Below, piece after piece: positions 44,272 through 48,763 of a stretch of DNA of 64,000 nt. The notes beneath the pieces were generated by a model. It ran no database searches and was not told where the DNA came from. It saw nothing but the letters and a program-made list of their open reading frames with translations. Positions within the stretch are counted from its first letter, which is position 1. Every line of letters begins with the position of its first letter. The position numbers were made by a program, and so were the translations under genes. Source of the stretch: Lentisphaera marina (lineage in GTDB: Bacteria > Verrucomicrobiota > Lentisphaeria > Lentisphaerales > Lentisphaeraceae); the NCBI RefSeq assembly GCF_028745505.1, contig NZ_JAQZZL010000001.1, positions 744,001-808,000 of the forward strand, written 5' to 3'.

Positions 44272-45946
44272 GAGGCTGTGTGAAAAACAAACACAACTTT
44301 AATACTAATATATACATGGTATTTTATATTAGTATTAATTAGGAGAACAAAATGAACTTGATACAAGGTGATGATCGGAGAGAAAGTATTTTCTTTCCTC
44401 AATGCCTAGATGATTACATTGACTCGGATAGTGAAGTACGGATAATTGATCATTTTGTTGACTCTCTCAATTTAAGGGAGTGTGGTTTTAAATTTCCCAA
44501 AGAAGATCCGCAGGGACGTGGTCGCGCGGCTTATAATCCTGCGGATTTACTGAAACTTTTTATTTACGGATATTTCAATGGTGTTCGTTCAGGGCGCAAA
44601 CTGGAAAAAAACTGTCACATTAATCTCGAATTGATATGGCTGTTAAAGCGCTTGAAACCTGATTTTAAAACTATTTGCGACTTTCGCAAAAACAATCGAA
44701 AAGCTTTTAAACAAGCAACAGCTCAATTCACATTATTATGCCGTGAATTAAAGCTCATTGCAGGGGAAACAATTGCTGTCGACGGAACAATAATAAAAGC
44801 CTCAAATAATATTTCTAAAAGCTGGAGCTCAAATAAGCTTGAGAAGAACTTGAAGGAAAATGAAGATCTAGTCGAACGCTACCTTAAAGAACTTGAGAAG
44901 TTGGATGATGATCCCGCACCAGATAAAAACCAACGTAAGGAAGATATAGAGCACAAGTTGGAATATAGACAGCGGGAAAAAGAAAGACTCAGTGCACTTA
45001 AAAAGTCTTTGGATGAATCCCCTAATAATCATCTTTCTTTAACTGACACAGATAGTAAATCAATCCATAAAAGAGGCAGGTCCTCTGTAGGATATAATGT
45101 TCAAACGTCTGTTGATAGTCTTCATAAGCTCATAGTATGCTGTGAAGTCACGGACAAAGTCAATGATTTAGGACTTCTTGCTCCAATGGCTAAAAAAACA
45201 AAAAAATTACTGAACCTAAAAGAACCATGTAATCTTCCTGCGGATTCTGGTTACTATGTCTTAGATGATCTGAAGGATTGCGAAGATATGGGGATGATCC
45301 CCTACTTACCGACAGTTAATAAGTCATCAAATGTACAACAAGGAATGTATGGGAAAGAAGCCTTTATTTATGATCCTCAAAAAGATACTTATCTGTGCCC
45401 CAATAAAAGTACTTTAAAGAAAATTAGAACTACATCCCAAAGAGGCCGATTATTTAATCAATATGCTAACAAAAGTGCATGTGAAACCTGTTCGATAAAG
45501 CACCGTTGTACGAAAGCAAAAAAAACGCATTTTATCACGTTGGGAGCATGAGCAATATCAAGAACGAGCAACACAAAGGATTCTCGAAAACAAAGAGATG
45601 ATGGCAACACGTAAAGGAACTGTTGAGCACCCATATGGGACAATTAAAACTCAGTTTCTTACCAATGGTTTTTTAGTTCGCGGTAAGGAAATGGTCCAGG
45701 CTGAATGCTCGCTTGCACATTTGGCCTATAATTTGAAACGAGTTCTAAACATTATGAAATTTGATGACTTGATGAAAATCCTTGACGAAAAGATGAGTAC
45801 ATATTGCAAATTAATGGCCTTATCAAAGTATAATAAATACATTACCTTCGCTTTGGAGATTATTTTTGATAAATGTACAACACAATTCATGTGCTCTACA
45901 AAATTTAGCCGGGATGAAGTACGGCGCTTGTTTTTCACACAGCCTC
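44272..45946 (+). mobile_element. Second IS1182-like element
   Basis: A 1675-bp element with terminal inverted repeats of 19 bp (GAGGCTGTGTGAAAAACAA at 44272-44290, complement at 45928-45946). A 4-bp target duplication TTTA lies at 44268-44271 and 45947-45950. The ends differ from the IS at 11547 mainly in GAGGCTG versus GAGACTG. One transposase gene, with a broken frame, fills it. Confidence 0.9.
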
Positions 45947-45978
45947 TTTATCGTGTGAGGGGCCAAGCTAAAGCTTAA
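44352..45978 (+). pseudogene. IS1182-like transposase with a frame break
   Basis: The first frame (44352-45551, 399 residues) carries the N-terminal InsH-like domain and two catalytic Asp residues (IAVDGTIIKA; LPADSGYYVLDD). It then stops soon after a run of eight A (45518-45525). The remainder continues in the +1 frame (SRWEHE, then EHPYGTIKTQFLTNG with the catalytic Glu) and ends at 45978, past the IS end. With seven A the whole protein reads through, so one A was gained or the tract is slipped during transcription. AGGAG precedes the ATG. All three DDE residues survive across the two frames; it is about as long as the transposase at 11577 but clearly diverged. Confidence 0.85.
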
Positions 45979-46001
45979 ATCTATGACTTTAAATACTATT
46001 T

Positions 46002-46142
46002 CTCGCGAAGGCGCCAAGTCGCGAAGTTAACGGTAAAAATTATTAAGGGTGTTTTATATGGGTTTAGAGCACTTGTTACTTTATTAAGTCCTAGAGCTAT
46101 TGAGGAGGATAAAAAACTTATATATCTTAGCGCCTTGGCGAG
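46002..46142. repeat. Repeat unit A: short derivative of the GxxExxY unit
   Basis: 141 bp bounded by imperfect 17-bp inverted repeats: CTCGCGAAGGCGCCAAG on the left, CTTAGCGCCTTGGCGAG on the right (15 of 17 complementary). The left end and following bases match the start of the GxxExxY-bearing unit at 46211, including ATGGGTTTAGAGC, which aligns with the start of the GxxExxY coding sequence, but the coding part is missing. It is near-identical to unit C. Confidence 0.75.
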
Positions 46143-46210
46143 AGCCTGCTTTTCTAGCTCGGCCCCGAAGTGATTGATGAAAAATTAATGAATTTCCCCA
46201 GGTAATATTT

Positions 46211-46714
46211 CTCGCGAAGGCGCCAAGCCGCGAAGTTAGAGGTGATATAATTAATGGGGTTTGATATGGATTTAGAACTGTTAGGTAAAGAACTTGTTGA
46301 TTCGGCTTATAAAGTTCACACAGAGTTGGGGCCAGGTCTATTAGAATCAGTTTATGAAGTGAGTTTAAGTTACGAATTGGCTAGGCGTGGTTTCAAGGTG
46401 CAGAGGCAAGTACCCATGAAAATCAAATACGAAGATATATATTTTGATGAGGGCTTCAGAGCAGATATTATTATCAATGATTTAGTGATTATTGAACTAA
46501 AATCAGTTGAGAAGCTTCATCCAGTACATAAAAAACAACTCTTAACATATTTAAAGTTGACTGGCAGGAATTTAGGTTTTTTGATCAATTTTGGGGAGGT
46601 TCTTATTAAAAATGGAATTATTCGAATTGTAAATAATTACCAAGAATAATACGGGGACTAGAATTCCCATACATATCCTGATCTGAGACTAGTGAATTTG
46701 GGGTGATAATATTT
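46211..46714. repeat. Repeat unit B: GxxExxY-bearing unit
   Basis: Begins with CTCGCGAAGGCGCCAAG (46211-46227), the same left end as units A and C, continues through GAAGTTA...GATATAATTAATGGGG into the GxxExxY gene, and extends to the left end of unit C at 46715. No right-end copy (CTTAGCGCCTTGGCGAG) follows the gene before unit C, so either unit B lost it or the unit uses the right end of C. Confidence 0.65.
46254..46649 (+). CDS. GxxExxY protein, PD-(D/E)XK nuclease-like
   Basis: 131 residues; the ATG at 46254 is used, but the ATG at 46266 (MDLELLGKEL) aligns with the start seen in units A and C. The GxxExxY motif is Gly28-Glu31-Tyr34 in GPGLLESVY. Asp71 in FRADI, Glu81 and Lys83 in IIELKS, and Gln95 in HKKQLLTYL match the PD-(D/E)XK nuclease pattern. 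Members of this family occur widely in bacteria and in many metagenomes; the activity is not established to my knowledge. It sits inside a repeat unit with inverted ends, beside two units that keep only its start. Nuclease activity and mobility are inferences. Confidence 0.9.
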   Translation: MGFDMDLELLGKELVDSAYKVHTELGPGLLESVYEVSLSYELARRGFKVQRQVPMKIKYEDIYFDEGFRADIIINDLVIIELKSVEKLHPVHKKQLLTYLKLTGRNLGFLINFGEVLIKNGIIRIVNNYQE

Positions 46715-46854
46715 CTCGCGAAGGCGCCAAGTCGCGAAGTTAACGGTGAAATTATTAATTGAGTTTGATATGGGTTTAGAGTACTTGTTGTTTTATTGAG
46801 TCCTAGAGGTATTTAGGAAGATAAAAAACTTAGATATCTTAGCGCCTTGGCGAG
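46715..46854. repeat. Repeat unit C: short derivative of the GxxExxY unit
   Basis: 140 bp with the same ends as unit A (left 46715-46731, right 46838-46854) and a nearly identical interior, including TTTGATATGGGTTTAGAG, shared with the start of the GxxExxY gene, then a segment CTTGTTGTTTTATTGAGTCC absent from the gene. The interior contains a small palindrome (CCTAGAGGTATTTAGG). The gap after it has nothing further until the sulfatase stop at 46931. Confidence 0.75.
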
Positions 46855-46930
46855 AACCTATTCTTTTTACCAGCACCAACGAAGTGATTAAAAAAAGAAC
46901 AGCTCTTAGTGATTAGGATGGGAGTTTGAA

Positions 46931-48763
46931 CTATTTTACAGGGAGAGCTTTAGTGGAGTAATTGCCGCGTTTGAAGTCTCCCACTTGGCCCATGCGTGGA
47001 TAGGAAACTAGGAAGTTTTTATCATCAACTAAATTGAAGATATAATGCGTACTTCCTTCTGGCAGTTCGGCAAAGACTTTACCATCGCCGACAGTTGCAT
47101 CCATACGATTCCATTCCTCAGAACCTTGGCCACCATTAGTCGTATACATTAGATAAGCTTTATCTATTTTGTTGCCCCTAGTTTTATATTCCACCCAAAC
47201 CTTGCGACCTTTACGTCCTTCAGATTTCACAATTGGAGTGTTTTTGATGCCTGGTAAAGGATTTTTAAAGTAGGGGTTTTTGTAGGGGTAATCAGCATCC
47301 ATTTCATCGAGTCTTTCCTGAAGAAGACGATTCATTTCTTGTGCTCTTTCGGGGAATCGAGTCGCTAAATTTTTACTTTCTTCTATATCAACTCGTTCAC
47401 CCTTTTTATCATAGAGTTGGTAGAGTTCGAGAGGCGGCTTGTTGGGTTGATAATTGCGAATGATTTTCCAGCCATCAAGACGAAAAGTTGAGTGCATGGA
47501 GGCACTATTTGGGAAGTGATGCATAACGGAATTGCGGACTTCGCCATTAGCGTCTGTGACTAAAGCAGGCTCGGTAGGATCTTTTGTGAGCAGGGTAGAA
47601 AGATCAATGCCATCGAAGTGTAAATTTGCGGGCTTCGCAGTTTCCGTCCAACTGAGAATAGTAGGAAAAAGGTCCATGCCATTGGCGATAACGTCGGTTT
47701 GAACATCGGCAGGGATCTTTGGGCCGCTGATAAGCAATGGTACACGGGTTCCACCTTCTTGAGCATTGATCTTGCCTTTGTCGAGAGGATAGTTGTCGGT
47801 AATCACTTCACCTGGGTGACCTTCCATGCCGCCATTATCAGAAGTGAAAATGATGTAGGTGTTTTCAATGAGTTTGTGGCCGGGCCAGCGAGGATCATCG
47901 GTTTCTTTTAGGTAAGTAAAGATTTGTCCGACATAATAATCGAGCATTTCAATCATTGCCGCGTAATAGGGGTTTTGCTGACCAGGTAGATCCCAACCCT
48001 TGGGGTCTTTTGGAAATTCGATACCGAGTTTTTTGCAGTACTTTTCCAAAAGAGGAAGGCTACGTGTATGAATGGGAGTGTGAACGAGCCAAGTAGCGTA
48101 ATAGAGGAAAAAGGGCTTGTCTTTATTATCTTTTATAAAGTTGAGGGCATCGACATTATTTTGATGGAAGGGAAAGTTATTTTCGTCGAGGCGGAAGGGG
48201 TCATCTTTTGCGTGAGTCGCAAAACCTTCGAGTCGATTTTTTCTGCCTCCAGTGGCACCACGTGAACTGCGAGTGAAATCAAAGCCGTGATCTTTGGGTT
48301 GGGGGTAGGCGTGGTGATCAATGGCAATATGCCACTTACCTACATGACCCGTGTAATAACCATTAGTCTTGAGTACTTCGGGGATGATAGTATTTGAAAT
48401 AGGGAGACGGCCACGGTACCAAGGAGCAATCATGGACCAAGCTTTTTCATGATTGGGAATGGGGGGAGCGCCACCGACAACATGGGGGCGTTTGAGACGG
48501 GCGGGGTGTTGTCCCGCTAGAATGGCGCCGCGGCTTGGTGCACAAGTTGGGGCAGGGGAATAAGCTTGCCAAAACATGACCCCCTCAGTGGCGAGTCGGT
48601 CAAGGTTGGGAGTTTCGTAGGGTGAGGGTTCGTCGATGTCGTAACATTTTACATCTTGCCAACCCAAATCATCTGTAAGGATGAGGAGGACATTGGGTTT
48701 GGGACGTTCGTTTGCAAATAGTGAGCAAGTTAAAATTAAACTTGTGAGTAAAAATGCTTTCAT
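46931..48763 (-). CDS. Secreted sulfatase, paralog of the 9481-11304 enzyme
   Basis: 610 residues, signal peptide 1-17 (CSLFA-N). Asp pair at about 31-32, CAPSR from Cys74, GHVGKWHIA strand and TSDNGGME metal site. It is strikingly similar to the sulfatase at 9481 along the whole chain, with long identical stretches in DDLGWQDVKCYDIDEP and in YYAA-EMLDYY, and has the same C-terminal extension (AYLMYTTNGG, HYIFNLVDDKNF). The main differences are Ser for Thr in the Cys motif and scattered substitutions. It is probably a duplicate, now 37 kb away; the substrate may be the same. Confidence 0.93.
   Translation of the reverse strand: MKAFLLTSLILTCSLFANERPKPNVLLILTDDLGWQDVKCYDIDEPSPYETPNLDRLATEGVMFWQAYSPAPTCAPSRGAILAGQHPARLKRPHVVGGAPPIPNHEKAWSMIAPWYRGRLPISNTIIPEVLKTNGYYTGHVGKWHIAIDHHAYPQPKDHGFDFTRSSRGATGGRKNRLEGFATHAKDDPFRLDENNFPFHQNNVDALNFIKDNKDKPFFLYYATWLVHTPIHTRSLPLLEKYCKKLGIEFPKDPKGWDLPGQQNPYYAAMIEMLDYYVGQIFTYLKETDDPRWPGHKLIENTYIIFTSDNGGMEGHPGEVITDNYPLDKGKINAQEGGTRVPLLISGPKIPADVQTDVIANGMDLFPTILSWTETAKPANLHFDGIDLSTLLTKDPTEPALVTDANGEVRNSVMHHFPNSASMHSTFRLDGWKIIRNYQPNKPPLELYQLYDKKGERVDIEESKNLATRFPERAQEMNRLLQERLDEMDADYPYKNPYFKNPLPGIKNTPIVKSEGRKGRKVWVEYKTRGNKIDKAYLMYTTNGGQGSEEWNRMDATVGDGKVFAELPEGSTHYIFNLVDDKNFLVSYPRMGQVGDFKRGNYSTKALPVK

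Follow-up and report, generated by a model that had tools for sequence, protein, structure and literature searches.

The window, a 64,000-nucleotide stretch of the Lentisphaera marina genome (contig NZ_JAQZZL010000001.1), contains a GxxExxY gene set among short inverted repeats. Copies of a left end, CTCGCGAAGGCGCCAAG, begin at 46002, 46211 and 46715, giving the three units termed A, B and C, and an inverted end, CTTAGCGCCTTGGCGAG, finishes at 46142 and 46854. Both the left end common to the three units and the imperfect inverted copy that closes A and C had been described in the original prediction for this DNA. The positions proved to be exact, and the repeats far exceed chance: with up to two mismatches allowed, TCGCGAAGNCGCNAAG was found eight times in the window against 0.32 expected, and eight or more matches occurred in 0 of 100 shuffles. 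Across the whole genome, this type of pattern gave 72 matches, compared with 12 in a reversed-letter control. The arms consist of iterons rather than a single 17-mer, with NCGCNAAG recurring at a period of 8, and those of A and C start with CTCGCG and end with GGCGAG. An IS1182-type transposase broken over two ORFs (44352-45978) ends 23 bases before unit A.

Table 1 Coordinates of the GxxExxY locus within the window
Feature	Position	Strand	Description or basis
Gene-less hairpin unit A	46002..46142		Iteron arm CTCGCGAAG-GCGCCAAG-TCGCGAAG, ~100 bp spacer, inverted arm CTTAGCGCCTTGGCGAG
Left terminal iteron arm of gene-bearing element	46211..46235	+	Three 7-mers CGCNAAG, period 8
GxxExxY / PDDEXK_3 nuclease-like gene, 131 aa	46254..46649	+	Residues of catalytic type D71, E81, K83, with E31
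Hairpin unit C, read as right end of the element	46715..46854		Same arm-gene-hairpin order in L149 (G004)
Right terminal inverted arm CTTAGCGCCTTGGCGAG	46837..46854	-	Sequence
Proposed complete mobile element B+C	46211..46854	+	Inferred

Units A and C share 90% identity, and both align with the first 66-67 bp of B, including the sequence ATGGRTTTAGA. In unit B, the left arm is followed by the gene but by no inverted right arm; the next inverted arm to the right is that of C. In the sister species (G004, loci L158/L149), hairpins are followed by an arm and gene and then by a further hairpin, the same order as in the window. Additionally, in the A-type elements of the Nostoc family considered below, an inner forward array, judged by eye, precedes the right arm. 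On these grounds, we read 46211-46854 as one putative element bounded by terminal inverted repeats and comprising left arm, gene and hairpin, with A as an extra gene-less hairpin. Unit B would then have no right end of its own because B and hairpin C form one element, and the intact unit with both ends that the original prediction proposed to look for would be B+C. The same prediction took A and C for non-autonomous copies. Both do retain the start of the gene and lack the rest, but C fits better as the right end of the B element. That A and C are deletion derivatives of B is likely, though not proven, since the corresponding G004 hairpins carry no ATG. When the units were folded as DNA, the arms of A paired with unremarkable stability (z -1.53; 15 of 200 shuffles equally good), and C gave a moderate signal (z -2.77; 1 of 200). 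No Rfam match to window positions 45500-47500 was obtained at E values up to 1.

The ORF of unit B, for which an alternative in-frame ATG at 46266 is possible, matched the GxxExxY family TIGR04256 with 138.9 bits (cut-off 35) and PDDEXK_3 (PF13366) with 136.4 bits (cut-off 22). It is the only ORF of at least 50 residues between the window arms, and no DDE transposase is encoded there. The gene had been assigned to B alone, with Asp71 and Glu81-Lys83 as nuclease residues; the family scores agree with this, and an alignment of 81 sequences shows no variation at D71, E81 and K83 or at G26, G28, E31, N112 and R124. Y34 of the GxxExxY motif is conserved in at least 90% of the sequences. The AlphaFold2 model of the protein is confident (pLDDT 92.9, pTM 0.86). 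Its top Foldseek matches were LHK-Exo and Cas4 SSO0001, followed by splicing endonucleases and lambda exonuclease, with TM-scores of 0.42-0.52 and none with an E value of 0.001 or below; a sequence search for solved relatives returned a single match at E 0.17. Weak profile matches to PDC-S02 and Cas4 (PADLOC) and to a CRISPR-associated phage family agree with the fold. The protein is thus predicted to adopt a PD-(D/E)XK fold of the RecB, Cas4 and lambda-exonuclease kind with a D...ExK core. We presume that E...D...ExK together with Q95 and Y99 resembles the QxxxY motif of Cas4/RecB-type nucleases. The likeness to these and lambda-type exonucleases lies in the predicted fold; conversely, the window protein has 131 residues against 194-228 in the solved relatives, its sequence similarity to them falls below family level and its gene is tied to repeats (for Cas4, see PMC5704561). 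With the window protein as the sole query, the gene is nearly absent from phage records (0 of 50,697) and plasmid records (7 of 72,556).

The original prediction asked whether such ends accompany GxxExxY genes elsewhere. A contig scan yielded 80 loci, the best 80 of at least 562 confirmed relatives, a set that leans to close relatives because the best-matching ones were kept. By record title, these loci belong to Planctomycetes, Bacteroidetes, Chloroflexi, Cyanobacteria, Acidobacteria, Nitrospirota, several proteobacterial groups, Lentisphaerae, Verrucomicrobia and candidate phyla. Of 108 genes, 46 had CGCAAAG and 44 had CTTTGCG within 250 bp, where distal DNA from these contigs predicted about 6 and 5. 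In a first flank comparison (100 of the 108 genes, the rest having short flanks), matched inverted flanks scoring at least 14 were found in 62 of 100 own pairs, 0 of 78 distal pairs and 103 of 989 cross-locus pairs; at a score of at least 24, the counts were 16, 0 and 4. The two flanks also showed direct similarity (score at least 14) at 40 of the 100 loci, a result of units lying in tandem that blurs the ends. In an enlarged set of 151 genes, three of which had too little flank, matched inverted ends occurred at 116 of 148 GxxExxY genes against 168 of 1474 cross-locus pairs. The ends therefore do go with the gene, and across many phyla. They are mostly built of about three 7-mer iterons; the iteron varies between elements, and the two ends of one element agree. 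Matched ends did not reach the threshold at 32 of the 148 genes, among them L001, one of four GxxExxY genes in the window's genome, the other three of which do reach it. Two other genes of this genome (L036, 2616-3284; L037, 2698-3160) lie between inverted CCACAGAT-type arrays, and in L037 the ORF taken from the first ATG (MNPQISQIFTELR) begins as a translation of its own left arm.

The position of the arrays relative to the gene was profiled for 141 of the 151 genes. Within the first 100 bp, double arrays were found in forward orientation upstream of 74 of 137 genes and in reverse orientation downstream of 72 of 138, compared with 6 and 10 in the reversed-letter control. A forward array lay within 300 bp upstream of 95 of 141 genes, and beyond 600 bp double arrays fell to at most four loci per 100-bp bin. 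Extra arrays also adjoin the gene units, with reverse arrays within 100 bp upstream at 32 of 137 genes and forward arrays within 100 bp downstream at 23 of 138. The units are typically about 450-500 bp long (median 503.5 bp).

The ends are much more diverse than the one 17-bp sequence of the original prediction. Typed with the preset word C[AG]CN[AG]A[GTA], the dominant iterons of 104 labelled genes were CGCNAAG (43), CACNGAG (27), CGCNGAG (14) and CACNAAG (14), with rarer types such as CACNGAT (3), and some elements have quite different end words (CGCAACG in L086, ACAGGAT in L169/L170). Several types can coexist in one genome: the window's genome (G000) has both CGCNAAG and CACAGAT ends, and G304 has three types (L060, L208, L233). 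In L312 and L330 (G153) and L047 (G000), CGCNAAG arrays adjoin CACGGAA-, CACGAAT- or CACAGAT-type repeats, as if types cluster. On a wide protein tree of 97 of the 104 labelled genes, built from few columns and with 44 open forks, iteron type required 25 changes against a shuffled mean of 48.2, and 0 of 200 shuffles were as low; CACNAAG alone did not cluster significantly (71 of 500). Iteron type thus clusters on the protein tree, so that the ends co-vary with the protein, a point that the original prediction had proposed to check by alignment. Mutual information between iteron type and residue gave candidate positions, for example window residues 37, 94, 118 and 107, for which tree-controlled pairs on supported branches number just two to three; any link of these candidates to iteron choice may simply reflect ancestry.

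Turnover could be followed at one site in detail. The DNA to the right of the element at L069 was matched in 143 of 145 genomes of the family of Nostoc sp. 106C, which we take to be the Nostocaceae. Seventy of the matching genomes and three loci of the earlier scan gave 73 loci; both neighbouring genes, which are convergent, were found at 54, the left gene was not in reach at 19, and L061 duplicates L267. A GxxExxY gene lies between the neighbours at 38 of the 54 loci, 32 forward and six inverted. The other 16 hold short iteron hairpins (L253, 59 bp; L273, 83 bp; L285, 58 bp; L290, 59 bp), a different palindrome (L294, 42 bp), scraps or other DNA, or are empty. Typing by majority of words, the left and right iterons agreed in every one of the 36 rows for which both ends were typed (35 distinct; 21 CGCNGAG and 15 CGCNAAG), with two more rows typed at one end only. 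Two element lineages occupy the site. On the tree of element proteins (31 of 35, four being short; L061, L076 and L082 left out), iteron type changed once, at a branch with SH-aLRT 100. Conversely, on the tree of flanking DNA (49 loci) iteron type changed at least 11 times, orientation at least five times and gene presence at least 11 times, counts that are approximate because 14 of 46 inner branches are open. L247 (inverted, CGCNAAG) and L252 (forward, CGCNGAG) form a close pair on the flank tree, with short branches, a support of 81 and a clade support of 99. The single change on one tree and the repeated changes on the other indicate that the protein is inherited along with both ends and that all three are exchanged as a block. 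At eight protein alignment columns, the two iteron types of this site have non-overlapping residues, which ancestry explains equally well. No precise excision was seen among these loci; the empty sites look like deletions.

Insertion at new sites was apparent in the sister species. The G004 copy encodes a protein 89% identical to that of the window and matches its element DNA at 79% over 444 bp, with unmatched flanks. Matches to the flanks of this insertion lie about 4 kb apart in G004, and 75 bp apart in G000 and 85 bp in G005 with no iterons, the site being empty in both of these genomes. Empty sites, which had been named as a check on mobility, are thus present both here and at the Nostoc-family loci without a unit. 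For the sulfatase beside the window's own element, the best matches in G004 and G005 have no adjoining CGCNAAG arrays, though orthology is less sure here since the family is large. G004 also holds a second copy (L158/L149, G004:C18), in which about 1.8 kb of inserted DNA splits the GxxExxY gene; this insert is counted in the ~4 kb between the flank matches.

Internally deleted copies were found alongside complete ones. Genome G303 has full units of 446-447 bp (L362, L364, L365) and units missing parts of the gene (L351, 326 bp; L352 and L353, 212 bp; L355, 187 bp; L357, 218 bp). The arm pair scored at least 14 in 12 of 20 stretches and lower in L354, L355, L356, L357, L359, L360, L367 and L370; in L357 (13.5) the arms are visible, and L355 lacks only its outermost left iteron. 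L352, L353 and L355 have a deletion breakpoint in common. L352 and L353 are part of a longer duplication (92% over 871 bp), whereas L355 matches them over just ~258 bp and lies in other DNA. A second related pair of derivatives (L366 and L368, G304) lies in different DNA and matches over 244 alignment columns. One-breakpoint derivatives at separate sites are what mobilisation in trans predicts. The initial idea of a mobile unit with MITE-like derivatives accords with these gene-deleted copies at several sites, with the new sites and with the turnover at the Nostoc-family site.

Within the window's phylum, GxxExxY genes occur in 163 of 288 genomes and a triple CGCNAAG array (up to one mismatch) in 79. 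The gene is present in 74 of the 79 array-positive genomes against 89 of 209 array-negative ones (Fisher p 7e-17, ancestry ignored), and the five array-positive genomes without it have one to three arrays each. The reversed-letter control was positive in 17 genomes, 14 of them with GxxExxY, and in G247 it exceeded the pattern. Exact triple arrays can greatly outnumber GxxExxY genes, at 166 to one in G088, 42 to three in G065 and 65 to six in G153; the four places inspected in G065 are discrete hairpins of ~65-90 bp. Among the triple arrays listed for G088:C1 (0.16-3.24 Mb), the minus strand predominates up to 1.7 Mb and the plus strand between 2.4 and 3.2 Mb, a pattern that would fit orientation with replication. 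In the window's genome, L044 2590-3500 (G000:C2, ~2350.6-2351.5 kb) is a tandem repeat with four iteron arrays ~250 bp apart; in three of its units the inverted end has another sequence (CAGCGACTCGGCGTGAG or a one-base variant).

From these comparisons, the unit is very likely mobile. We favour the reading that it is a small autonomous mobile element whose sole gene is the GxxExxY nuclease and whose inverted ends consist of about three 7-bp iterons, and consider this probable; it is similarly probable that the nuclease is the enzyme acting on the element ends.

Among the closest known systems are REPINs and RAYTs, short extragenic palindromic doublets occurring in many copies and clusters, with a nuclease gene flanked by its own palindromes (PMC3116915). 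The palindromic doublets, the small nuclease gene with its own palindromes and the presumed mobilisation in trans are likenesses to the elements reported here. Were the hairpins moved by a Y1 (HUH) REP transposase, with GxxExxY as a passenger or domesticated neighbour, the doublets, the tandem clusters and genomes such as G088 with a single gene and many arrays would look alike; furthermore, Y1 genes, whose products could act in trans, were present in all seven genomes searched. However, a double iteron array lay within 800 bp of the Y1 match at 0 of 12 loci examined (one with a short flank), the nearest being four at 850-1150 bp, whereas forward arrays are found close upstream of GxxExxY genes at the frequency given above. 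The arms of A and C also lack the GTAG-type tag that marks REPs (PMC3733652), and the iterons co-vary with GxxExxY, with several types in one host. Membership of the REPIN/RAYT class was rejected on the enzyme (PDDEXK_3 rather than Y1), the tag and the want of nearby iterons at the 12 Y1 loci. Unlike REPs, the ends are direct iterons; moreover, matched inverted ends bound the gene-bearing unit itself, which undergoes turnover at a site. We therefore regard a REP transposase as an improbable mover. Y1 loci of the genus (L373, L380, L381, L382 and others) carry other repeats, such as the TCGGACCTCCGGCCCT of L381 and L382, which may belong to a separate REP system.

Host recombination between repeats could by itself generate tandem copies, inversions and deletions, and if GxxExxY served in repair or defence, as its repair/Cas4-like predicted fold might suggest, selection could hold the gene near repeats. 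This explanation, to which we assign an equally low likelihood, does not account for most of the genes lying between matched ends, for ends and protein changing jointly or for the one-breakpoint derivatives in unrelated DNA.

Slightly less likely still is an unlinked DDE transposase, such as that of the adjacent IS1182, moving the units as MITEs with GxxExxY as cargo. The broken copy beside unit A fits this proposal, and the search for target duplications bears on it directly. The abutting duplications that the original prediction had proposed to look for were not found: at 92 elements, whose ends are inexact, abutting repeats of 2, 3, 4, 5 and 6 bp numbered 63, 24, 7, 3 and 2 against 53.6, 21.5, 7.1, 2.2 and 0.6 expected. 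That 2-5 bp duplications abut the elements about as often as they do in cross-locus pairs argues against DDE-type strand transfer, an argument tempered by the inexact ends and by an excess of direct repeats of at least 6 bp anywhere in the outer 20 bp (16 of 92 elements against 62 of 911 cross-locus pairs). Given that mild excess, a variable or displaced target duplication is possible, and we have raised the DDE explanation slightly and lowered our preferred one slightly on its account. The termini themselves are unsure and may lie outside the arrays, since homology extends 15-60 bp past them in some copies. Against a DDE mover stand the lack of a fixed-length abutting duplication, the recurrence of matched ends at GxxExxY genes across phyla, an end sequence that tracks the GxxExxY protein and the sister-species copy in unrelated DNA. 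IS1182 as the mover and DDE-type transposition in general were judged unlikely.

Finally, ordinary terminators or regulators of a vertically inherited gene would suit the convergent genes at the Nostoc-family site and the folding of C, which is better than most shuffles, but are highly implausible given the type changes, inversions and losses at that one orthologous site, the array number of one-gene G088 and the lack of an Rfam match around the window's units.

Returning to an autonomous element acted on by its own nuclease, we envisage that GxxExxY would bind the iterons of its own ends, probably as several protomers on the iteron array or on an extruded hairpin, and would cut at or in the arms. 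Host repair would then copy or rejoin the element, often at sites already bearing such hairpins, and the hairpins would be non-autonomous copies and landing pads at once. Homing into existing hairpins is suggested by the reuse of one site and by the further arrays adjoining gene units; it is the least certain step, and we advance it tentatively.

With insertion sequences and MITEs, the elements have in common terminal inverted repeats, one gene and internally deleted non-autonomous copies. They differ in having iteron-built ends, a length of only ~450-500 bp, no DDE transposase between the window arms and no abutting duplication. The Tn7 protein TnsA is a PD-(D/E)XK nuclease that acts at transposon ends together with a DDE partner; no such partner is encoded between the window arms. 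PD-(D/E)XK homing endonucleases, for example I-SspI, offer another parallel, being small nucleases carried by the DNA they are thought to spread, with one site reused. The GxxExxY unit, however, is not in an intron or intein, and has inverted ends and gene-less copies.

In open PMC text, GxxExxY was found as a passing annotation only, with no assigned role, and the iteron strings were unmatched save in unrelated animal papers; among the matches listed, there was no description of these repeats or of a GxxExxY mobile element. Novelty is accordingly claimed against open PMC text only. GxxExxY elements might form a class of their own, although we would not yet favour this in full: one in which a single small RecB/Cas4-like nuclease, with no known transposase, uses iteron ends of matching type, homes into hairpins of its own kind and seeds the CGCAAAG, CACAGAG, CACAGAT and CACGAAG palindromes of environmental bacteria.

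The link to matched inverted iterons gives the GxxExxY family a testable role, and the elements are a possible source for the large stock of short palindromes in environmental genomes. If the proposal is correct, it would add a class of mobile element that lacks a recombinase of the DDE, HUH, serine or tyrosine kind. In that case, the many different matched end pairs would amount to a natural catalogue of protein-DNA specificities, and the natural variety of iteron types makes the rules of recognition directly testable.
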